From NCBI GenBank assembly GCA_015711725.1, contig JACVIX010000008.1, forward strand, positions 1 through 45,479: a stretch of 45,479 nucleotides of DNA. Direction: 5' to 3'. The notes beneath the pieces were generated by a model. That model was not told the DNA's origin. It searched no databases and saw only the letters and a program-made list of their open reading frames with translations. This DNA is from Candidatus Geothermincola primus. Lineage in GTDB: Bacteria > Actinomycetota > Geothermincolia > Geothermincolales > Geothermincolaceae. The stretch's first letter is position 1; every line of letters starts with the position of its first letter. Positions 21,756 to 33,086 of the stretch are shown here, piece after piece. Position numbers and translations under genes: made by a program.

Positions 21756-24700
21756 TCAATCTTCCACCTGGGTGATTCTCACCGTTTTGCTGGCAAGAGA
21801 GCCAATGGTGACCCTCAATTGGAAATTAAGTCTATCTGGATGTTCAGGGACTTCGCTTACCAAGTAGGAGTCCGCTCCGTAGACCTCGTAATGATAGCCC
21901 AGGCCAGGCCGAGGCATGAAGAACTCCAACTCGCACTGGCTAAAAGCCTTTTCCAATTTATTGGTTATATCGCACCAAACATCGGTATCTCCACCACTCC
22001 AATCACCATTGTTGGAGAAGATATACTGTACGGATGTCTTGTTGAGTTTGGAGAGGTCGGTATTGCCTCCTATGTTCACTCCCTCATAATAGGGATAAGA
22101 GTAATATACCCCGTTCAAGTACTTATAGCTATGGGAAACTAGATTCCAGCCTGAGAATTCGGCTATCTTAAACCCAGGATAACGATTGCTAACACCATCC
22201 TTTTGAATGGCCACACTGGTAGCGTTGGGGAAGATGGTCTTTCCTCCACCCATAGCCCAGGCCAGCTCATGGTATTGGTCCACATGGTCGTGTCCGCTCA
22301 TTACCATGTTCACTTTATATTCAGAGCAGAGTCGCTGCACGGCCATTCTGCCTTTACCGTACTGTCCCAACACAATTATTCCGAAGTAATCGGAGGGCTT
22401 CCACATGCCATCAACTGTGGGATCATGATGCATGAACAATCCTTTGAAAGAGCTGTCTTGATGCGCCGCCAGGTCATCACGCAGCCAACCTAATTGATCG
22501 GTATATGTGCTGGGATCTGGGGCGATGCGATAACAATCATTGCAGCTCTCCGCCAGGAACCATGTAGTGGCGTTGCTCAGCGCGCCGAACACGCAATGGC
22601 CATCCGTCCATTTCCCCCGGTAGTTGAAGTACATGGGGCGCTCGGCGATAACCGGAAGGGTGGATTCAAGCTTGATGGAGATGTCCCCCCGCTCTGGGCA
22701 GTCCCTGTGAACATGGATAGTATATCTACTTCTGGGTTGAACCACGTGTGTCTTCAAGTAATTATTGCCATTGCTCATCATATAATTTACATTTAACGTC
22801 GCCGCTCCGTCGTTGGGATTCTGTATGGTTAAATACTCCTCAAAACCATATCCGGTATATCCTTCAGCGAAATACCAATTGGTGGCTGCCCCGTTCACGC
22901 CCATCACGCAATGTCCCCCATTCCAGCTTCCCCGGTAGTTGAAGTACATGGGTCGCTCGGCGATAACCGGCAGTGTGGAGTCAAGCTTGATGGAAAGCTC
23001 CCCCTTCTCCGGGCAATCGGTGTTTACCGAGATACTGTAACGGCTTTTTGCCGGCACTAGGTGAGACTTACTATAATTATGACCGTTAGCCATCATGTAA
23101 TTAACCGTCAAGGGGGTATCGCTGTCATTGGGATTCTGTATTGTTAAGTACTCCACGAAATCTTTCGCGGTATATCCTTCCGCGAAATACCAATTGGTGG
23201 CGGAGTGGGTGGCGCCGGCCACGCAGTGCCCCCCACTCCATGCCCCACCATACCTGAAGTACATGGGTCGCTCGGCGATAACCGGCAGTGTGGAGTCAAG
23301 CTTGATGGACACGTCCCCGCCTTCTGGGCAATCCTGGTTTACCATAATGCTATATCTGCTTTTCCCAGGCACGATGTGAGACCTGGTATATACATGGCCA
23401 TTGCTCATCATGTAAGTAACGTTTACCTCGGCCGACCCCGTCTGGGGATTCTCTAGGGATAGGTACTCATGAAAGTTAGAATCGGTTCTTCCCTCAGCGA
23501 AATACCAGGTGGTGGAAGGATTAACCGAGCCCAGCACGCAATGGCCCCCATTCCAGGACATATCGTAATCGAAATACATAGGTCGTTCGCAGATAACCGG
23601 CATGCTGGAATCCACCCGGACAGAAAATTCCCCTTTCTCCGGGCAATCCCTATTTACATTTATGGTATACCTGCTTTTTGGTTGGGCCAAGTGTTCCTTG
23701 AGGTAAAGATGGCCATTATACATCATGTATGTTACGTATATGGTTACCGCCGCGTCATTGGGGTTCTGAATGGTGATATATTCCTCGAAAAAGTCATTTG
23801 TATCGCCCCCGGAGCGAACCTGCCCCTGCCAGGCTCCAGGAGCCAGAACCCCAGCCAAGTTGCTATACCAGGGCTGTTCCAGCTTCCTCATCTCCTGAGG
23901 CCAGTCCATGGTGTTTATCGCCGTATAGTGGTGATTGCCATAGTCGAATGAATAGAATAGAGGGCCGAAGGTCTTAGTCCACCAGTCATATCCGTCGTCC
24001 ACGGTGTCGTAATAGCCATCGTGATTTCCCATGACCATAAAAACCGGTACCTTCAGAGCTTGAAGTTCCTCGTACAAGAACGAATACTCATATTCGTACT
24101 CACTAGATCCCCCTCGAGGTTGCCCATCGTTGGGAGGCCACTGGCTAGGCAGATAACGTTGGCCGAAGATAGAATCGCCGGTAATAACTAGGATATCGGG
24201 GTTGAGAAAGTTTACTACACTTATTGCCTTCTTTAAATACTTAGCGTCGTGCAATGCCCTGTCATGCAGGCTGCTATACTCCACCAGTGGATTTCCATAA
24301 GTTATATCGTAGACATGAATGTCGGTCATCTGAACTATACGGTAGTTGGGGTTCCAGTCGTTGACCACCGAGAGGCAATGTGGCTGTCTGTCCACTACCT
24401 CCAGGTCATCCGCCTCCACCTTTACCTCTAGGTCATAAAGATCGGGAGGGATTTCCGAAGGTATCTCCACCGTAACTTTATACACCTCGTAAACCGACCG
24501 CCCGGATCCTTGAGGCCAGCGTTGGCTCATTCCGAAATCCACGCTCAGGATTGGAAGATCCGCGGTAAAAGGCGTGTAATCGTTTGAGCCCGAGATGCTC
24601 ACTTCCCAGTTATCAACGTCAGAAGGCAGCGGGATTGAAGGATTATCCTGACGGAAATCGAACTCAAGGGTAAAATTGGAGCCGGTTTTCGATAATTGGG

Positions 24701-24869
24701 GGAACCCGAATGTGGGGTAGATTAATTTGGTAATGCGCGGCACCACCGCCGCCTCCGCTCTTTCTTCTTCTGCTACTGGCATTATCATCAATGAAGTGAT
24801 AAGAAAAACCGCCAATAGGTAGATAGCGCGGAAACATAACGACCTTCTCTTATCTTTGTTTTTCCACAT
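21756..24869 (-). CDS. Secreted calcineurin-like metallophosphoesterase with four inserted beta-repeat modules
   Basis: A protein of about 1037 aa. A signal peptide (basic WKNKDKRR, then IYLLAVFLITSLMIM and cleavage near ERAEA) leads into an Ig-like region. The phosphoesterase motifs follow: VQMTDIHVYD, ILVITGDSI and VMGNHDGYY. After NHHYTAINTMDW the catalytic domain is interrupted by four 105-aa repeats. It then resumes with QLGWLRDDLAAH, LFMHHDP and VMSGHDHVDQ, giving a complete di-metal site (D..H, GD, GNHD, HH, GHDH). The C-terminus is another beta domain. The ORF track begins 51 codons upstream. The ATG at 24869 has AGGAG upstream and starts the signal peptide, and a promoter-like sequence lies inside the rejected extension. 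The substrate is unknown; extracellular nucleotides or phosphoesters are plausible. Confidence 0.86.
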   Translation of the reverse strand: MWKNKDKRRSLCFRAIYLLAVFLITSLMIMPVAEEERAEAAVVPRITKLIYPTFGFPQLSKTGSNFTLEFDFRQDNPSIPLPSDVDNWEVSISGSNDYTPFTADLPILSVDFGMSQRWPQGSGRSVYEVYKVTVEIPSEIPPDLYDLEVKVEADDLEVVDRQPHCLSVVNDWNPNYRIVQMTDIHVYDITYGNPLVEYSSLHDRALHDAKYLKKAISVVNFLNPDILVITGDSIFGQRYLPSQWPPNDGQPRGGSSEYEYEYSFLYEELQALKVPVFMVMGNHDGYYDTVDDGYDWWTKTFGPLFYSFDYGNHHYTAINTMDWPQEMRKLEQPWYSNLAGVLAPGAWQGQVRSGGDTNDFFEEYITIQNPNDAAVTIYVTYMMYNGHLYLKEHLAQPKSRYTINVNRDCPEKGEFSVRVDSSMPVICERPMYFDYDMSWNGGHCVLGSVNPSTTWYFAEGRTDSNFHEYLSLENPQTGSAEVNVTYMMSNGHVYTRSHIVPGKSRYSIMVNQDCPEGGDVSIKLDSTLPVIAERPMYFRYGGAWSGGHCVAGATHSATNWYFAEGYTAKDFVEYLTIQNPNDSDTPLTVNYMMANGHNYSKSHLVPAKSRYSISVNTDCPEKGELSIKLDSTLPVIAERPMYFNYRGSWNGGHCVMGVNGAATNWYFAEGYTGYGFEEYLTIQNPNDGAATLNVNYMMSNGNNYLKTHVVQPRSRYTIHVHRDCPERGDISIKLESTLPVIAERPMYFNYRGKWTDGHCVFGALSNATTWFLAESCNDCYRIAPDPSTYTDQLGWLRDDLAAHQDSSFKGLFMHHDPTVDGMWKPSDYFGIIVLGQYGKGRMAVQRLCSEYKVNMVMSGHDHVDQYHELAWAMGGGKTIFPNATSVAIQKDGVSNRYPGFKIAEFSGWNLVSHSYKYLNGVYYSYPYYEGVNIGGNTDLSKLNKTSVQYIFSNNGDWSGGDTDVWCDITNKLEKAFSQCELEFFMPRPGLGYHYEVYGADSYLVSEVPEHPDRLNFQLRVTIGSLASKTVRITQVED
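22530..23789 (-). repeat. Four tandem 315-bp coding repeats
   Basis: Four units of exactly 315 bp (105 aa) are in register. Matching landmarks at 22641, 22956, 23271 and 23586 are each 315 bp apart. Each unit starts near F-x-EY-(I/L)-(T/S)-(I/L)-(Q/E)-NP, contains a (M)MxNGHxY segment, SRY(T/S)I, CPE(K/G/R)G and ERPMYF, and ends with a W(Y/F)(F/L)AE motif. The WYFAEG-type repeat is a beta-sandwich-like surface module that I know from actinobacterial OPB41/Geothermincolia proteins. The ERPMYF / cggcgataaccgg portion is the best conserved at DNA level. Confidence 0.85.
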
Positions 24870-25178
24870 GTCCCTCACTCCTCTGACTGCCCTGGAAAAT
24901 ACTTTTAAAAAACGTAGCCTCCCTGCGGAATCTAACCACATCATGGGATTGGCCATCGCTTGTTTATATTTTAATATTAATCCAGGCGCAATGTCATCTC
25001 CCATGGGAATATTCAAAATCATCAGTTTTCCAAAGGTTTCGGAAAAATCGTAAGACTGCCAGTTCCAAAATTGTTTAAAATATATTCAAGTATCTATTAC
25101 TCAAATATAATGGATTAAGCCGGAGATACATCAATCCTGCGTTATCTTGCGTTAGAAAGAACAAGAGGTAGTATAGAA
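24870..25178. other. Divergent intergenic region between phosphoesterase and DUF1015 genes
   Basis: Once the phosphoesterase start is corrected, this 309-bp stretch holds no gene. The ORF track's 51-codon extension into it (MILNIPMGDD...) has no signal or family match. It contains a minus-strand promoter candidate at 24963-24991. For the plus strand there is a perfect TATAAT at 25106-25111 without a convincing -35, about 68 nt before the GTG of the DUF1015 gene. Confidence 0.5.
24963..24991 (-). promoter_or_regulatory. Candidate promoter of the phosphoesterase gene
   Basis: On the minus strand, TTGCGC (91-86 of 24900s) is followed by a 17-bp AT-rich spacer and TATAAA. The -10 is 5 of 6 and the -35 only 3 of 6 to consensus. 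Its position about 95 nt upstream of the ATG at 24869 supports the shorter start choice for that gene. Confidence 0.35.
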
Positions 25179-26516
25179 GTGGCGGACATAAGAGCTTTTC
25201 GCGGAATGATATACAATTCCAGCGTCAAAGGAGGCATGAACAAGCTAGTCGCTCCTCCTTACGACGTGATCGATGAGGAAGAACAAAAGAGGCTCCTTCG
25301 CCTACACCCCCATAACGTTGTGAGACTGATCCTCCCCGAAGATAAACTTAAGACCAATGACTATCCTTGGCAAGCCAAGGCTCGGTCATTTTACGAGGAA
25401 TGGAAATCTCGAGGGGTTTTTAAATCCAGCCTCAAACCCTCTATTTATGTCTACCGCCAGGATTTTCCCCTGCCGGAAGGTGGCAGGAGAAACCGGATAG
25501 CTTTAATCAATCTGTATAAAATCGAGAATTTCGGCACAAACGGTATCTATCCTCATGAGCAGACTTTCTCGGAAGTTACGGAGGAGCAATTAAATCTCTT
25601 GCGACATTGTCGGGCTAGTTTCAGCCAGATTTTTTCCCTTTTTAAGGACGACAAGGCTTTCTGGCTCTGTCTGGAGGATAAAATCCTTCCCTCGAGTAGA
25701 CTCCTATACCGGTTTACCACGGATGACGGCATTCTGCATGAGCTTATGGAGCTAAGCGATGCATCAGTGATAAACGAGCTCAGAAGTTATATGTCAGACA
25801 AGAAGATCTTCATCGCGGATGGTCATCATCGATATGAGACGGCTCTTCTCTACCGTGATGAGCGAAGGGAAAAAGAGAAAACGCAAGAGGAAAGGCCTTA
25901 TGATTTCGCCCTTATGGCTTTTGTGGGCATCAACGACCCGGGTCTAGTGATGCTCCCGGTACATCGCTTGATAAAGAGCTTTAACCTCCCCCCAGAAGAA
26001 GCCTTGCGCAAACTAGAGCGAAGCTGCTCAGTTGAGCGGGTAGGCGACACCCATAACAAAAAGGCGCTTGATAGCGTAACTTCCCAAGTTGTCCGGCGAG
26101 CTGGCAAAACTTCCATATTCGGATTGATAATTCCTGGGGGAATCTTCTTGATAAGGCCAAAAAGAAAGATAATGGTTGAAGACATCGCCGGGCGGAATCA
26201 TTCTGAAAAATGGAGGCGCCTGGATATCGCCATTCTCCACGAGGTGGTGATGAAAAATTTTCTTGGCCTGGGTGATGTGGACAGCGCTGATAAGGGGTAT
26301 TTTTTAAAATACACGATTGATACGCAGGAGATGGTGAAGGAAATCCTCTCGGGAAACTATCAGATGGGGTTCTTGGTAAAGCCACCCAGCCTGGAGGACG
26401 CATGGTCTATCTCTGCCCGTGGAGAAAAGCTCCCCCATAAAAGCACTTATTTTTACCCCAAGATACCCTCCGGCTTGGTGATTTATGACCACACGTCTGG
26501 TTTCTCTGCTGATTAG
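25179..26516 (+). CDS. DUF1015 family protein
   Basis: A 445-aa cytosolic protein of the usual DUF1015 length. The N-terminus IRAFRGMIYN...KLVAPPYDVID is the family signature, followed by LHPHNVVRLILPED, GIYPHEQTF and the invariant IADGHHRYETAL at about residue 212. The molecular function of the family is not established. Members are often near serine/phosphoserine metabolism genes in clostridia and actinobacteria, but not here. The start is GTG with AGAGGTAG upstream. It converges on holA, with 4 nt of overlap between the two stop regions. Confidence 0.92.
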   Translation: MADIRAFRGMIYNSSVKGGMNKLVAPPYDVIDEEEQKRLLRLHPHNVVRLILPEDKLKTNDYPWQAKARSFYEEWKSRGVFKSSLKPSIYVYRQDFPLPEGGRRNRIALINLYKIENFGTNGIYPHEQTFSEVTEEQLNLLRHCRASFSQIFSLFKDDKAFWLCLEDKILPSSRLLYRFTTDDGILHELMELSDASVINELRSYMSDKKIFIADGHHRYETALLYRDERREKEKTQEERPYDFALMAFVGINDPGLVMLPVHRLIKSFNLPPEEALRKLERSCSVERVGDTHNKKALDSVTSQVVRRAGKTSIFGLIIPGGIFLIRPKRKIMVEDIAGRNHSEKWRRLDIAILHEVVMKNFLGLGDVDSADKGYFLKYTIDTQEMVKEILSGNYQMGFLVKPPSLEDAWSISARGEKLPHKSTYFYPKIPSGLVIYDHTSGFSAD

Positions 26517-27517
26517 TCCTGGCGAATCCCGCAAATATCATATATTAAAATCTCTAGGGAGCATTCCGCAGACCTCTCGGAGTTTTTGGAAGCTATGTCA
26601 AATTCCAGTAATCTTCTGTAAATTTTCTTCAGATCGTCTATATCATATTTACTGGATTGTTCCTTAAGTTTTTCCATTATGAAAGGCGCAACTTTCAGAT
26701 GCTCCTCCCCCAAATCCGTTTTTTTTCTTTTGAAAGAGAGTGCTTTGTATCGAATCAACAGTCGATATTGCCGAACCAGACGATTAAAGATCTCCAGTTC
26801 CCTCTCCCCTTGCCTCAAAAGACTGTGGAGTAGTTTCAACGACGTGTCTATGTTTCTTAAAGCGATCTGATCAACCAGCTCATAAACGGTATGCTCCGCG
26901 GTTAAAGATATCAAAGGAACCACATCTTCGAGGTCGATATGGGCTTTATGGTCATAAAAGACATCGATCTTTTCCGCTGCGGAATATAGGCCTTGTAAAT
27001 CATAACCTATACTTTCAAGTAGAAAAGCTAATGCTCGGTTGGAGATAGTCTTTCCCTTATCCCGAAAGAGACTCTTGATCAAGGAAGGATATTCCCTTCT
27101 TGCATACTTAGGTTGTTCTATTACCTTCCCATAGTTCTCCACCAGCTTGTACAATTTATTTTTTCTATCGATGCCCACGCCCGAGAATATTATGCATGAT
27201 GTTTCCACTGGATTCTGAAGATAACTCTCCATTTTCTTTAAATCCCGGGGGGAGATATGCTGCGCCTCTCTCACCAAAAGGACCCTTTTCTCCGCGCCAA
27301 AAGGTGTGGTTTGCGCCCTCAGAAGGGCGGCTTCCAGGTCATCGGTTCCGGCGTCTATATCTTCGAAATTCAAATCCAGATCAGGGGAGGCCGAGATCTT
27401 TTGCGCAATCAGGGCAGTCGTTCTTTTCACTCTGTAAGGGTCTTTAGAGGTTAGGAGGACAACTTTCTGGAGAATATCCCTTTTAAGGCTCAGGCTCTCT
27501 CTGCGGCCATCGCTCAC
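26513..27517 (-). CDS. holA: DNA polymerase III subunit delta
   Basis: A 334-aa protein of HolA length. It has an AAA+-like N-terminal fold without a Walker A (LLTSKDPYRVKRTTALIAQK), then TTPFGAEKRVLLVREAQ and the second-domain helix GYDLQGLYSAAEKIDVF, typical of the delta subunit (G.DL..L..E..K). The C-terminal collar domain carries RQGERELEIFNRLVRQYR. Delta opens the beta clamp for loading. It is translationally coupled to comEC (4-nt overlap) in the very common comEA-comEC-holA order, which strongly supports the call. Confidence 0.92.
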   Translation of the reverse strand: MSDGRRESLSLKRDILQKVVLLTSKDPYRVKRTTALIAQKISASPDLDLNFEDIDAGTDDLEAALLRAQTTPFGAEKRVLLVREAQHISPRDLKKMESYLQNPVETSCIIFSGVGIDRKNKLYKLVENYGKVIEQPKYARREYPSLIKSLFRDKGKTISNRALAFLLESIGYDLQGLYSAAEKIDVFYDHKAHIDLEDVVPLISLTAEHTVYELVDQIALRNIDTSLKLLHSLLRQGERELEIFNRLVRQYRLLIRYKALSFKRKKTDLGEEHLKVAPFIMEKLKEQSSKYDIDDLKKIYRRLLEFDIASKNSERSAECSLEILIYDICGIRQD

Positions 27518-29847
27518 CGTCTCGCCCCTTTTATCCCAACTGAATATCCTTCACCGTCCACTTCGATTATAATATCACCGCATTGGTCCGTTCGGTAGAT
27601 TTGCGACCCTATATATCGGAGAGACTCCAGGGTCTCGGCGTTGGGATGCCCATAGTCATTATCTCGACCTACCGATATCACTGATATCAAGGGGTTTACT
27701 TTGGAGAAAAAGTCTAAGCTTCTTTGGGAGAACCCACCATGATGGGGAACTTTCAAGATGTCCGCCTTCAGATCCATCTGCATATCCAAAAGTTTGCCTT
27801 CTTGCTCGCTTTCGATGTCGCCAGTGAGCAAAATACTGAAAGAGGGAGTGCTTATCCTTAAAACTAGCGACTGATCGTTTTCCGTCGCCAGAGTTATCTC
27901 TGACTCTTTGGGGGAAAGAACTTCTATTCGCAATTCCTGAAAGGTATATATCTCCCCAGCTCTTCCTGTAATCCTTTGCGCCCCCTCAAGATCCACCTTC
28001 TCCGACCATTCTCGATAGAAAGAGCCTCCCTCAAGACCAACTTCCATAACTGCACCCACTGAGCACTCGTCCAAACACCCTGATAGTCCAGCAACGTGGT
28101 CCTTGTCCGGATGGCTGAGTATCATTAGGTCTATATCGCGGATGGAATAATCTTTGAGCTTTCGCCGCAATAGCTGAGAGTCCTCTCCCCCATCGATTAA
28201 TATATTCTCACCGCAGGAATTCTGTAAAAGGATAGAATCCCCTTGGCCCACGTCAAAAAATATGATCCTCGCCTTAAGATCGCCTATCCCGGAACTTAAC
28301 CTCAAAGGCATGCTAGAAAAAATAATTATCGTAATTAAAGCCGCGAGGAACAATTTATTCAGTTTAAGCTTTCTACCCCTCCCCCAAATAAAGGCTGCCC
28401 AGAGAGATAGATAATAAGCTATCACAGTAAATGTATTAAGGATGGTGGATTTAAAGTTAAGCACAGCCCAGTTTGGATAAGCGACGGTATGGGCAACTAT
28501 CAACACGTATTTAAGGCAAAACCTGCCGAGTAATGCCGGCAACACCGCTAATGGAAGCTGAAAATATTTAAATATAGCTCCGATAAATCCGCATGCCATA
28601 ACCACCGGCATCAATGGCAGAACCATGAGATTAGCCAATGGGGCGATCAACGAAATCTCTCCAAAGGTCGAGATTAAAAGCGGGGCGGTAGCCATCTGAA
28701 CTGCCATGGTAGCGGATATAAGCCTGTTGATCTTATTATCTTTCAGCGCAAAAGTTTCCATAAGCGGTCGGTGCAACAAAATCAAGCTCAAGATGGATAG
28801 AAAAGAAAGCAGAAAACTGATGTTATAAATCCAGTGGGGTTTCCATAATAGCATCAGCGTACCCGCTAGGCTCAACGCGGATAGACCATGGAAATCGGCG
28901 AAGAGGATGGCGGAGGAGGAGATTATAAAAACTACCAAAGCGGAACGTATTATCGCCGGCCTTCCTCCCGTTATCAACACATAGAAAGATATCGAGATTA
29001 GCTGGGAGAGAAAGAGTACAAGCGAGCTCATGCGCAGCCTTTTGCCCAAATAGATGATCAGGCCCGCCAATATGGTCAGATGCAAGCCGGAGGCTGAGCA
29101 GATATGGATTAATCCGGTTCTCTTGAGGGCGTTGTTTTCGTCTATGTTCAGTTGGCGATAATCTCCCAACATAATCCCCGAGATGAGTTTCCCTTCCTTC
29201 CCACCGCCCATCTCCTCCATGCAAAACCTGTATATAGTTTTCCTAAATTTGTTAATTAATGATTTAATCGCGCTTGATGGCCCGCTAATCTTAAACATGT
29301 CGGAACAGCGAACTATTCCATCGATTCCCGAGGTCCTATCCCTGAGACGAATTAAATCCCCTATGACTCGGACTCTCTCTCCCCATTCAATTATGTCCTT
29401 TTCTTTTCGTCTGTGATCCGTGACGCTTATCTTGAGCCTCTCGCCCTCACTTACTCCCAACGCTGGATTTCCATCCGTCTCTATAATCAAGCCGCCTGTT
29501 TCCGGAAGAAAAGGCGAATCTAAGGTTAGCTCGCCCTCTATCTTTACATTATGTAATATTTTATATTCTTGATTTCCCTTACCTTCTTGCCCCTTCGCGC
29601 AAATCAGTCCTCCAGTTGCTACAATGATGATTAACAGCCCCAGCCATAAGAGACGTGGCGATCTCCTGAAGAAAAGAAACGCAAAACAAAGCCCGCATGT
29701 AAGAATAGCCCAGTATACTCCAATAGGCGGGCGGCACCGGTCATAGATGAAAATGCTCAAGGCAAGAGCCGCGAAGATGAACGCAAGGCGATAGGAATAG
29801 ACGCGGAGGGTCAGGTCGTCTAGTTTCTTAAATGCTGTGTTTATCAT
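27514..29847 (-). CDS. comEC: ComEC/Rec2 DNA uptake channel protein
   Basis: A 777-aa membrane protein. The N-terminal membrane segments enclose a DUF4131-like OB-fold region (about residues 90-190). The competence domain begins near GKLISGIMLGDYRQL and contains LIHICSASGLHLTILAGLI, a highly conserved ComEC segment. A C-terminal metallo-beta-lactamase-like domain has FFDVGQGDSILLQ, LSHPDKDHVAGL (HxxxDH) and LKVPHHGGFSQRS. It imports single-stranded DNA during natural transformation. The last domain, with intact motifs, may degrade the non-transported strand. The gene follows comEA by 38 nt. A clear Shine-Dalgarno close to the ATG is not visible. Confidence 0.95.
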   Translation of the reverse strand: MINTAFKKLDDLTLRVYSYRLAFIFAALALSIFIYDRCRPPIGVYWAILTCGLCFAFLFFRRSPRLLWLGLLIIIVATGGLICAKGQEGKGNQEYKILHNVKIEGELTLDSPFLPETGGLIIETDGNPALGVSEGERLKISVTDHRRKEKDIIEWGERVRVIGDLIRLRDRTSGIDGIVRCSDMFKISGPSSAIKSLINKFRKTIYRFCMEEMGGGKEGKLISGIMLGDYRQLNIDENNALKRTGLIHICSASGLHLTILAGLIIYLGKRLRMSSLVLFLSQLISISFYVLITGGRPAIIRSALVVFIISSSAILFADFHGLSALSLAGTLMLLWKPHWIYNISFLLSFLSILSLILLHRPLMETFALKDNKINRLISATMAVQMATAPLLISTFGEISLIAPLANLMVLPLMPVVMACGFIGAIFKYFQLPLAVLPALLGRFCLKYVLIVAHTVAYPNWAVLNFKSTILNTFTVIAYYLSLWAAFIWGRGRKLKLNKLFLAALITIIIFSSMPLRLSSGIGDLKARIIFFDVGQGDSILLQNSCGENILIDGGEDSQLLRRKLKDYSIRDIDLMILSHPDKDHVAGLSGCLDECSVGAVMEVGLEGGSFYREWSEKVDLEGAQRITGRAGEIYTFQELRIEVLSPKESEITLATENDQSLVLRISTPSFSILLTGDIESEQEGKLLDMQMDLKADILKVPHHGGFSQRSLDFFSKVNPLISVISVGRDNDYGHPNAETLESLRYIGSQIYRTDQCGDIIIEVDGEGYSVGIKGARR

Positions 29848-29885
29848 AAGTCGGCTTCGGGGGACCTATTCCTCTTATATCATTA

Positions 29886-30485
29886 TTAGATGGTGATCAG
29901 ATCTTTTATATCATTGAATTTCTTATCACCGATCCCTTTTACTTTTTTCAGTTCTTCGACGGATTTAAAACCTCCATTTTTTTCCCGGTACTCCACAATA
30001 TTCTTAGCCAAGGTGGGACCAATGCCCGGCAAAGCTTCTAACTCCTTCGCTGTTGCCTCATTTACGTTTATCTTTCCGGAGGCGTCGGTCCCCATATCGG
30101 AATTCACCCTTTCCCCTACCACTGGCACATAGATTTTCTGGCCATCCCTTAGTTTCTCCGCCAGATTAACAGGCTTGAGATCCGCTTGGGGAAGTGTTCC
30201 TCCCGCCTTTTCCAAAGCCTCGCCAACTCTGCATCCCTCATCAAGCTGATACAGACCAGGCCGTGCAACCGCCCCGGCAACATGCACTACTATCTGGGTG
30301 GGAACCTTTTCCGTCTCCCCTGGCTTCTCTTCCTTGGCGATGAATACCTTTTTCTGAGAGTGGGAGATTGCGTAGAGATAAACGAAGCAACATAGCGAGC
30401 TCACCACCACTAGACCAGCAAGCGCCAGTTTCCAGTAAGGGAGATATAAAATTTTCTCTACGAATGGAGATAGCTTCTTATGCAT
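29886..30485 (-). CDS. comEA: ComEA-type DNA-binding competence protein
   Basis: A 199-aa protein. One membrane anchor lies near residues 17-40 (YWKLALAGLVVVSSLCCFVYLYAI). A SLBB domain (VVHVAGAVARPGLYQLDEG ... LRDGQKIYVP) is followed by a C-terminal tandem helix-hairpin-helix domain (INVNEATAKELEALPGIGPT and VEELKKVKGIGDKKF). ComEA binds double-stranded DNA at the outer membrane face and delivers it to ComEC. AAGGAGG precedes the ATG. No pilin or comGA genes are in the window, so competence cannot be judged from here. Confidence 0.94.
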   Translation of the reverse strand: MHKKLSPFVEKILYLPYWKLALAGLVVVSSLCCFVYLYAISHSQKKVFIAKEEKPGETEKVPTQIVVHVAGAVARPGLYQLDEGCRVGEALEKAGGTLPQADLKPVNLAEKLRDGQKIYVPVVGERVNSDMGTDASGKINVNEATAKELEALPGIGPTLAKNIVEYREKNGGFKSVEELKKVKGIGDKKFNDIKDLITI

Positions 30486-30611
30486 CGATTTCCTCCTTAT
30501 TCATGAAGATGCTGTAAGCTAATATTTCTCGGAGAAACACAGAGATGTATTATTTACAGATTGAAAAATATCACTCAGGAAATATAATAATGAAGTATCT
30601 ATAGCTATCCG

Positions 30612-33086
30612 CTATATCACGATGTTCACTAATTTGCCCGGCACAACAATGACCTTTTTGATCTGGCGATCCTGTATGATCTGTTTGATCCGGGAAGACC
30701 CTAAAGCGAGTTCTTCCATCTCCTGGGGCTTTATATCCGCTTCCACTTCCACCCGATCCCGCACCTTGCCGTTCACCTGTATCACCATGGTGATGGTTTC
30801 CGCCTTGGCCATGTTCTCGTCCCAAGTTGGCCAAGGCTGTTGGTGTACGCTGTAATCTCCTCCTATTTCGCTCCACAACTCCTCGCAGATAAAGGGGGCG
30901 AAGGGGGCAAGAATTAAGATCATGCTTTCCACAGCCTTACGGCCCTCGTAGGTGTTGAATAAGCTTGGAGCTTCCTCCATAAATTTGCCTAAAACATTTA
31001 CGAATTCCATAATTCGCGCAATTGCGGTGTTGAAGGAAAATCTCTCGATGTCCAGGGTAACTTGCTTGACGGTACGATGGGTCCAGTGAACCATCTCCTT
31101 GAGAAGGACATCCTCTTCCGTTACTGGATTGGCCTTCAAAGTCAGGATATTCAGATATCGATATACCAGCCTCCAGACTCTGTGCAGAAAGCGGTAGCAT
31201 CCTTCGATCCCCGATTCGCTCCACTCCTTGTCCGCCTCGGGGGGGCCCAAGAAGAGAATGAATAGCCTCAATGTATCCGCTCCGTAACTGTCCAGGAATT
31301 CCCCAGGCGTGATAATGTTGCCCTTGGATTTGCTCATTTTGGCCCCGCCCATAACCACCATGCCTTGGCATAAAAGATTGGTAAATGGTTCATCGAAGTC
31401 CACCAGCTTGAGATCGTAAAGCACTTTGGTGAAGAAACGCGAATATAGCAGATGAAGTATGGCGTGTTCTATGCCTCCAATATACTGGTCTACCGGTAGC
31501 CAATAATCTATCTCCCCTTTATTAAAAGCCTCCTTTTCGTTACGGGGATCAGCGAAGCGGATGAAGTACCATGAAGAGTCGACGAAAGTATCCATGGTAT
31601 CGGTTTCGCGTTCCGCCCTGCCTCCGCATGAGGGACATGCGGTCAAGCGAAACTGTTCGGAACGCTCCAGGGGTGAAGGTCCCTCAGGGAAAAAGTCCAC
31701 GTCCTCGGGGAGCAATACAGGGAGGTCTTTCTCTGGCACAGTTACTATCCCGCATTTATCACAGTAGACGATAGGAATGGGCACGCCCCAATATCTCTGA
31801 CGGGAGATCAACCAGTCCCTTAAACGGTAGTTTACCTCACGATGCCCCCATCCATTTTCCTCAAGATATTGAGGTACCCTCGATTCCTTTCCTTCCAAGC
31901 TATCTAGCCCATCAAAGAGCCCAGAATTAATCATGATGCCCTCGCCCTCGTAGGCAGCATCCATGGTCTCCGGATCCAGTTCTCCCTCATACGGTTTGAT
32001 TACCACCCGCAATGGGAGGGAATATTTTTTGGCAAACTCAAAGTCCCTCTGGTCATGAGCAGGAACGGCCATAACCGCCCCGGTGCCATATTCCATCAAA
32101 ACGAAATTGGCGGTCCATATGGGCACCTCTTCCCCGTTGACCGGATTTATCGCATAAGCGTTCAAGAAAACGCCCTCCTTTTCCACGTCTAGCGCGGTCA
32201 ACTCGATCTCGGTCTTACCCTTCAACCTTTCCCTAAAATCGAAGACCTCCTTTTCCAGCTTCGTTCCCTTGGTCAAACGATCCACCAAGGGATGCTCCGG
32301 CGCCAGCAGAAAGAAAGTCACTCCCCATAGGGTATCGGGCCTGGTGGTAAAGATCCCGATGGTTTCGCCGGTCTCCTTTACTTTGAAAAACACCTTGCAT
32401 CCGTTGGATTTTCCAATCCAGTTGCGTTGCATCACCAGAACCCTTTCGGGCCAGCCTTTGAGCTTCTCCATATCCTCCAGTAATCTCTCCGCGTAATCGG
32501 TAATCTTGAGAAACCACTGATCGAGGAGTTTCTTCTCCACTAGGGTGTCGCATCTCTCGCAGTAACCGTTAATCACCTGCTCATTGGCTAGCACCGTCCT
32601 ACACGAAGGACACCAATTTGCTTTTGCCTCAGCCTTATATGCCAAGCCATTCTCGTAGAATTTCAGGAATAGCCATTGAGTCCACTTGTAGTAATCCGGG
32701 GAGCAGGTGGCCAGCTCGCGGTCCCAGTCATAAGAGTAGCCAAGCCTCCGCAAGTCCCGTTTCAGTAGGGCAATGTTGTCCCAAGTATATCTGGCGGGAT
32801 GAACCCCTGAACGGATGGCGGCGTTTTCCGCGGGGAGGCCAAAGCCATCCCACCCCATGGGATGCAGGACATTCCAGCCATTCCTGGCATAATAACGGGC
32901 TAAAACATCTCCCAAGTTATAGTTGGCCACATGCCCTATATGGGCTGGTCCCGACGGGTATGGAAACATTACTAGAATATATTTCTTCTTATGCTCCGGG
33001 TCTCGCGAGGTCTTGTAAATATTGTCCTCTTCCCATCGGCTCATCCACTTATCTTCTATCTTTGAAAAATCGTATTTTTCTTGCAA
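30612..33086 (-). CDS. leuS: Leucyl-tRNA synthetase
   Basis: An 824-aa class I synthetase of bacterial LeuS length. The HIGH-type motif is in [36 protein letters not shown] is diagnostic. The editing domain (CP1) carries [14 protein letters not shown] and the [15 protein letters not shown] motif whose Asp positions the mischarged amino acid. KMSKS is in [12 protein letters not shown] zinc-type CPSC/CERC pair lies near residues 180-200. The start is TTG, with GAGGTGG 5 nt upstream. The gene is preceded by a 214-bp AT-rich leader and followed by comEA after 126 nt. Confidence 0.97.

Follow-up and report, generated by a model that had tools for sequence, protein, structure and literature searches.

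A four-unit ASRAH/ASRT-type repeat block nested in a loop of a metallophosphoesterase from Candidatus Geothermincola primus, a probable single-chain tetramer

Results

The DNA analysed here (the window) is a stretch of 45,479 nucleotides from Candidatus Geothermincola primus (contig JACVIX010000008.1). It belongs to a 3.2-Mb draft genome of 225 contigs that contains about 25 similar repeat arrays. By its matched contigs, the closest named relatives of this genome are uncultured Actinomycetota, Candidatus Solincola and Candidatus Geohydrothermomicrobium among them. The phosphoesterase gene is a single complete ORF on the minus strand (21756-25022), encoding 1088 amino acids from the first ATG, and all motifs quoted in an earlier note on this DNA lie inside it. 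M52 at 24869, where that note had begun the gene, is located directly before the signal peptide and is plausibly the true start. The signal-peptide-like segment, recognised by eye, suggests that the product is secreted or anchored. The neighbours at window 25179-33086 are ordinary (DUF1015, DNA polymerase III delta, a ComEC-like competence protein and leucyl-tRNA synthetase), and no obvious operon partner of the phosphoesterase was found among them. The gene has the following features.

21756..25022, minus strand: complete ORF, 1088 aa; alternative start plausible at M52 (24869)
24747..24845, minus strand: signal-peptide-like hydrophobic segment, residues 60-92, RRSLCFRAIYLLAVFLITSLMIMPVAEEERAEAA region (sequence by eye; helix 59-79 in the model)
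24348..24746, minus strand: N-terminal all-beta domain of the phosphoesterase family, residues 93-225, common to all paralogues
23802..24347, minus strand: metallophosphoesterase first half, residues 226-407, with DxH (D234, H236), GD (D283) and GNHD (332-335) (PF00149 E 3.6e-12; invariant columns)
22542..23801, minus strand: insert of 420 aa, residues 408-827, four circularly permuted units of ASRAH/ASRT type (DUF5719)
23508..23801, minus strand: unit 1, residues 408-505, without its own strand 1 (WYFAEG)
23193..23507, minus strand: unit 2, residues 506-610
22878..23192, minus strand: unit 3, residues 611-715
22563..22877, minus strand: unit 4, residues 716-820
22542..22562, minus strand: trailing strand 1 WFLAESC, residues 821-827, the fourth Trp strand, which is proposed to complete the ring at unit 1
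21759..22541, minus strand: metallophosphoesterase second half, residues 828-1088, with linker NDCYRIAPDPSTYTD, QLGWLRDDL, HHDP (865-868), GHDH (910-913) and C-terminal beta region

The enzyme matched the calcineurin-like phosphoesterase family of Pfam (PF00149) at 47.5 bits, against a curated cut-off of 21.5. Like other calcineurin-like metallophosphoesterases, it has intact DxH, GD, GNHD, HH and GHxH motifs. The metal-ligand residues are intact and invariant, D234, H236, D283, N333 and H334 before the insert and H865, H866, H911 and H913 after it, and the protein is predicted to be catalytically active as a phosphoesterase. The core profile also matched purple acid phosphatases (E 1e-5), among which 6GJA and 3ZK4 are the nearest solved relatives. 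Unlike these, the window protein carries a 420-aa insert between GNHD and HHDP and has no purple-type tyrosine; membership of the purple acid phosphatases was rejected since the tyrosine ligand of GDxxY is replaced in G282-D283-S-I-F286 (GDSIF).

The earlier note had described the repeats as dividing the catalytic motifs and lying in a loop of the enzyme rather than at one of its ends, and both points were borne out. VMGNHDGYY (about 329-337) and NHHYTAINT (363-371) lie before the repeats, and QLGWLRDDL (843), LFMHHDP (861) and VMSGHDHVD (about 908) lie after them. Each of two uninterrupted paralogues, L002 from this genome and L063 from a relative, aligns with both catalytic halves in their order. 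The halves are thus parts of a single fold that has the repeats in one of its loops, and not of different folds. L002, a repeat-free protein of 628 aa from another contig, shares 54% identity with the first half and 39% with the second. L063 is the closest relative; its core is uninterrupted and its four repeats are at the C-terminus. A contiguous core was found in dozens of relatives across the class. These alignments show a phosphoesterase split by the repeats rather than a fusion with a second protein.

The repeats are inserted in the linker that joins GGD to QLxW, a stretch of naturally variable length (10-21 aa in relatives). Minus its 420-aa insert, the window protein has a linker of 15 aa, the same length as in its four nearest homologues (L002, L032, L033, L034). 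No target-site duplication was detected at the insert ends, where the two junctions share no DNA word of at least 8 bases. Other nested copies in this phosphoesterase family were found neither in 31 genomes of the class nor, by core search, in the named genomes.

A second group of phosphoesterase paralogues (L055 to L059 and L081, about 920 aa) aligned to the core in three segments, with breaks at about core positions 128-150 and 348-359, which suggests other insertions in the same enzyme family. The paralogue of Candidatus Solincola sediminis (L115, 6001-7676) is read as two ORFs that break near the same loop, which would reflect either a frameshift or a split gene.

The repeat block occupies residues 408-827, exactly 420 aa or four units of 105 aa. 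EYL-type motifs at 413, 518, 623 and 728 are spaced by exactly 105 aa, and self-identity reaches 0.58-0.61 at lags of 105, 210 and 315, whereas other lags average 0.05 (sd 0.017). Identity between units is 52-66% at the protein level and 62-70% at the DNA level, and the 315-bp array was detected by Tandem Repeats Finder. Four 105-aa WYFAEG repeats with a 315-bp period and no length drift had been reported in the earlier note. The four units and the exact period stand, but WYFAEG is present in three copies only; the lack of drift holds for the phosphoesterase, but not for its relatives, whose units drift by a few residues each. A usual unit runs from strand 1 (WYFAEG) to GGHxxxGA. Here WYFAEG is absent from the first copy and a degenerate fifth, WFLAES, follows the last one, so the block has the usual unit order in circularly permuted form. 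The four units are each other's nearest relatives and are not closest to any other array.

The repeats matched DUF5719 (Pfam PF18986) at 56.3 bits, above its curated cut-off of 26.2, and sibling proteins with the same repeat matched ASRT (PF07100) at 51.4 and 49.4 bits (curated cut-off 25). A profile of the units searched against PDB retrieved 1NC7 (TM1070, E 4.9e-5) and 2II7 (ASRT, E 1e-3). Predicted structures superposed on 1NC7 by Foldseek with TM of 0.79-0.81 and rmsd of 1.9-2.9 Å over about 112 of 116 residues. The superfamily Trp at the start of strand 1 occurs four times (W506, W611, W716 and the trailing W821), and the superfamily Asn at the end of strand 2 is present as an NP motif in all four units. 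These matches identify the repeat, at the level of profiles and predicted folds, as an ASRAH/ASRT domain (Pfam DUF5719 and ASRT). ASRT stands for Anabaena sensory rhodopsin transducer.

The SHExxCxxN pocket signature of the ASRT-like subfamily is absent. The units read EEYITIQN, HEYLSLEN, VEYLTIQN and EEYLTIQN, so that His is found in unit 2 only and Cys is replaced by T, S, T and T. Other ASRAH subfamilies carry their own residues in place of this signature (PMC2739507); its absence therefore excludes the ASRT subfamily, not the superfamily, and the ligand probably differs from that of ASRT itself.

We counted copies in 117 complete repeat ORFs from the window's genome and its relatives. Four copies were present in 101; the others were scored as five (5 ORFs), three (5), two (2) or one (4). 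Of the five arrays scored as five, four turned out to have four units with the opening inside a unit; in the fifth, an insertion splits one of four copies. Whenever the front strand 1 is missing, a strand 1 is present behind the last copy: this holds for 19 of 19 such tetrads and for none of 86 others (Fisher p 3e-21, by motif rules drawn up after examples had been seen and with a statistic that ignores kinship among the sequences). The opposite permutation, with the last strand ahead of unit 1 and absent from unit 4, was seen in about 15 others, a count made partly by reading, as the automatic rule for this strand is loose (23 false positives among unpermuted arrays). In L202, L234 and two proteins of L205 the opening falls in a loop of the unit, at position 60/61 (52 in one case), and the array still amounts to four units.

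L181 (ORF from 4016, plus strand) has at residues 176-612 four units that are 99.5% identical in protein, ahead of a region that looks by eye like a multicopper oxidase. It reads as a very recent amplification that stopped at four. Since the window units are also mutually nearest, arrays seem to be remade from one unit, yet they end at four.

Other proteins have tetrads inside them. In L202 (ORF from 6544, minus strand), L234 (ORF from 3010, plus strand) and L223 (ORF from 3428, plus strand) the array is located between IWQEP or IWNEP and (A/S)VHPY or AIHPY, and both flanks align among the three proteins. The first half of L234 matches glycoside hydrolase 42 at 29.5 bits (cut-off 21). Most simply, the three would be clan-A TIM-barrel glycosidases with a tetrad in a loop. 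Their arrays are opened at unit position about 60, unlike that of the window protein. L223 has about three units, two of them almost identical, so a collapsed copy is possible. These tetrads in putative glycosidase-like barrels of related genomes show that nesting is not a one-off. Two neighbouring secreted proteins of unidentified family in L205 (ORFs from 1178 and 4483, plus strand) also have four-unit arrays opened mid-unit, both of them nested between mainly non-repeat flanks.

AlphaFold models were obtained for the full-length protein (pLDDT 82, pTM 0.63; a shallow alignment of 23 rows) and for the block alone (residues 400-835; pLDDT 85, pTM 0.86; a shallow alignment of five rows). With a pTM of only 0.63, the full-length model does not define the placement of the four-unit body relative to the enzyme. 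The block model predicts that the four units form one defined body. In it the trailing TTWFLA is a strand (closing strand 818-823), and the enzyme-derived residues 400-410, which align with the missing WYFAEG, are disordered.

Discussion

ASRT defines a superfamily of beta-sandwich domains predicted, from context, to bind sugars (De Souza, Iyer and Aravind 2009, PMC2739507). In the solved members, which are tetramers, the interface forms part of the clefts, and the extracellular members occur in tandem, as dyads or tetrads (PMC2739507). An array of four copies therefore resembles a tetramer made of one chain. We consider it probable that the insert is such an ASRT/ASRAH tetramer in one chain, a closed four-unit body with meeting ends, in a loop of the phosphoesterase. 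Like TM1070 (1NC7), ASRT (2II7, PF07100) and the amidase-linked ASRAH tetrads of Chloroflexi, the window repeats have the same beta-sandwich unit, the Trp of strand 1 and the Asn at the end of strand 2; a functional body of four units and the fusion of secreted tandem tetrads to hydrolases are further likenesses. The window tetrad differs in being nested in a catalytic domain, in its circular permutation and in the replacement of most pocket His and Cys residues. DUF5719 (PF18986) is an extracellular actinobacterial family of unknown function; the window repeats exceed its curated cut-off, but the Pfam model spans about three units and describes neither the four-unit rule nor the permutation.

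In the proposed structure, four covalently linked ASRAH beta-sandwiches would form a closed body in which the first and last residues meet. In the window protein the chain would be opened just after strand 1 of a unit, and unit 1 would borrow the WFLAES strand behind unit 4 in a Velcro-like closure. The chain thus appears to close on itself, and we infer that it does so as a ring. Because its two ends would meet, four domains could fit inside the enzyme loop without breaking the enzyme. The body would be plugged into the variable surface loop between the strand after GNHD and the QLxW helix before HHDP, and the enzyme would fold from the two flanks. It would be a rigid head, presumably adjoining the active site, with four candidate ligand clefts, and would probably hold the phosphoesterase at its substrate or at the cell surface. 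The ligand is most likely a glycan. The guess in the earlier note that the repeats are a binding platform agrees with their assignment to ASRAH/ASRT, a domain already predicted to bind sugars in 2009.

A front strand missing and a spare one at the back also resemble donor-strand exchange, in which the trailing WFLAES or WYFAEG of one molecule would complete unit 1 of its neighbour and build surface polymers. The spare strand is indeed at the extreme C-terminus in most type A tetrads. However, both ends of the tetrad in the window protein are tethered to the same enzyme loop, in the high-pTM AlphaFold model the strand belongs to the same single chain, and type B and type C permutations also sum to four complete units, as a closed body predicts. 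We regard such intermolecular exchange as unlikely.

Tandem beta-sandwich domains often form rods, and the top Foldseek match by E-value was a tetra-tandem adhesin repeat (6xi3). The insert could accordingly be a linear rod, or four Ig-like domains on a flexible string, that loops out of the enzyme and does not close. The ends of a rod lie far apart, and a loop site of 10-21 aa could not bridge them unless the chain returned. Superposition on solved rod-like arrays was poor (TM 0.12-0.13, TMq about 0.1 and rmsd about 40-41 Å for 6xi3), and neither the block pTM of 0.86, nor the fixed number of four, nor the balanced permutations would be expected of a rod. On the block model and these superpositions the rod was dropped as the favourite, and we now think it decidedly unlikely. 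That the array was joined into the gene by an assembly error, as might happen in a draft of many contigs and similar arrays, is very improbable, as both junctions lie in non-repeat sequence with the frame kept through them, the addition is of exactly 420 aa and leaves the 15-aa linker intact, GC is similar (0.50 vs 0.51 and 0.48), the units are closest to each other and nested tetrads arise independently in other genomes.

Some observations count against the single-chain ring. Of the 117 arrays, five hold three copies and two hold only two; the closing strand WFLAES is diverged; most pocket His and Cys residues are replaced; both models come from shallow alignments, and the full-length one leaves the position of the body on the enzyme undefined; and the nested form in the phosphoesterase family was found in one genome only. 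With less assurance, but on balance in its favour, we suggest that the ASRAH four-unit ring is a natural plug-in module which has been cut open at a minimum of three points of the unit, placed behind, before or inside unrelated secreted enzymes across the class (the phosphoesterase, a TIM-barrel glycosidase and others), repeatedly re-amplified, and held at exactly four by closure.

The ASRAH superfamily, its tetrads (described in 2009) and the enzyme family are already known. In the open-access literature searched, the 2009 paper (PMC2739507) was the only relevant one on ASRAH, DUF5719 or nested tetramers, and neither the nesting of ASRAH tetrads in enzymes nor their circular permutation was found to be reported. 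If the proposal is true, a natural homotetramer has become one chain, has been circularly permuted and has been inserted in an enzyme loop. Protein engineers make such designs deliberately, for example with avidin (PMC3105096). The four-unit rule, together with the strand bookkeeping, would give a simple sequence test for the closure of repeat arrays. DUF5719, which is uncharacterised and present in dozens of secreted proteins per genome in the class, would become a testable glycan-binding display system.

No strong relatives of the tetrads outside the class were found in the other genomes of a 120-genome sample of the phylum. A phage or mobile origin of the repeats was rejected, since the viral collection gave no relative. 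Two genomes, G019 and G020, gave about 150 repeat matches, with up to 312 candidate places per genome. In them, secreted tetrad proteins seem to have expanded very strongly, an expansion confined to the class, and many different partner domains occur, among them M28 and M23 peptidases, GH39 and PQQ repeats.
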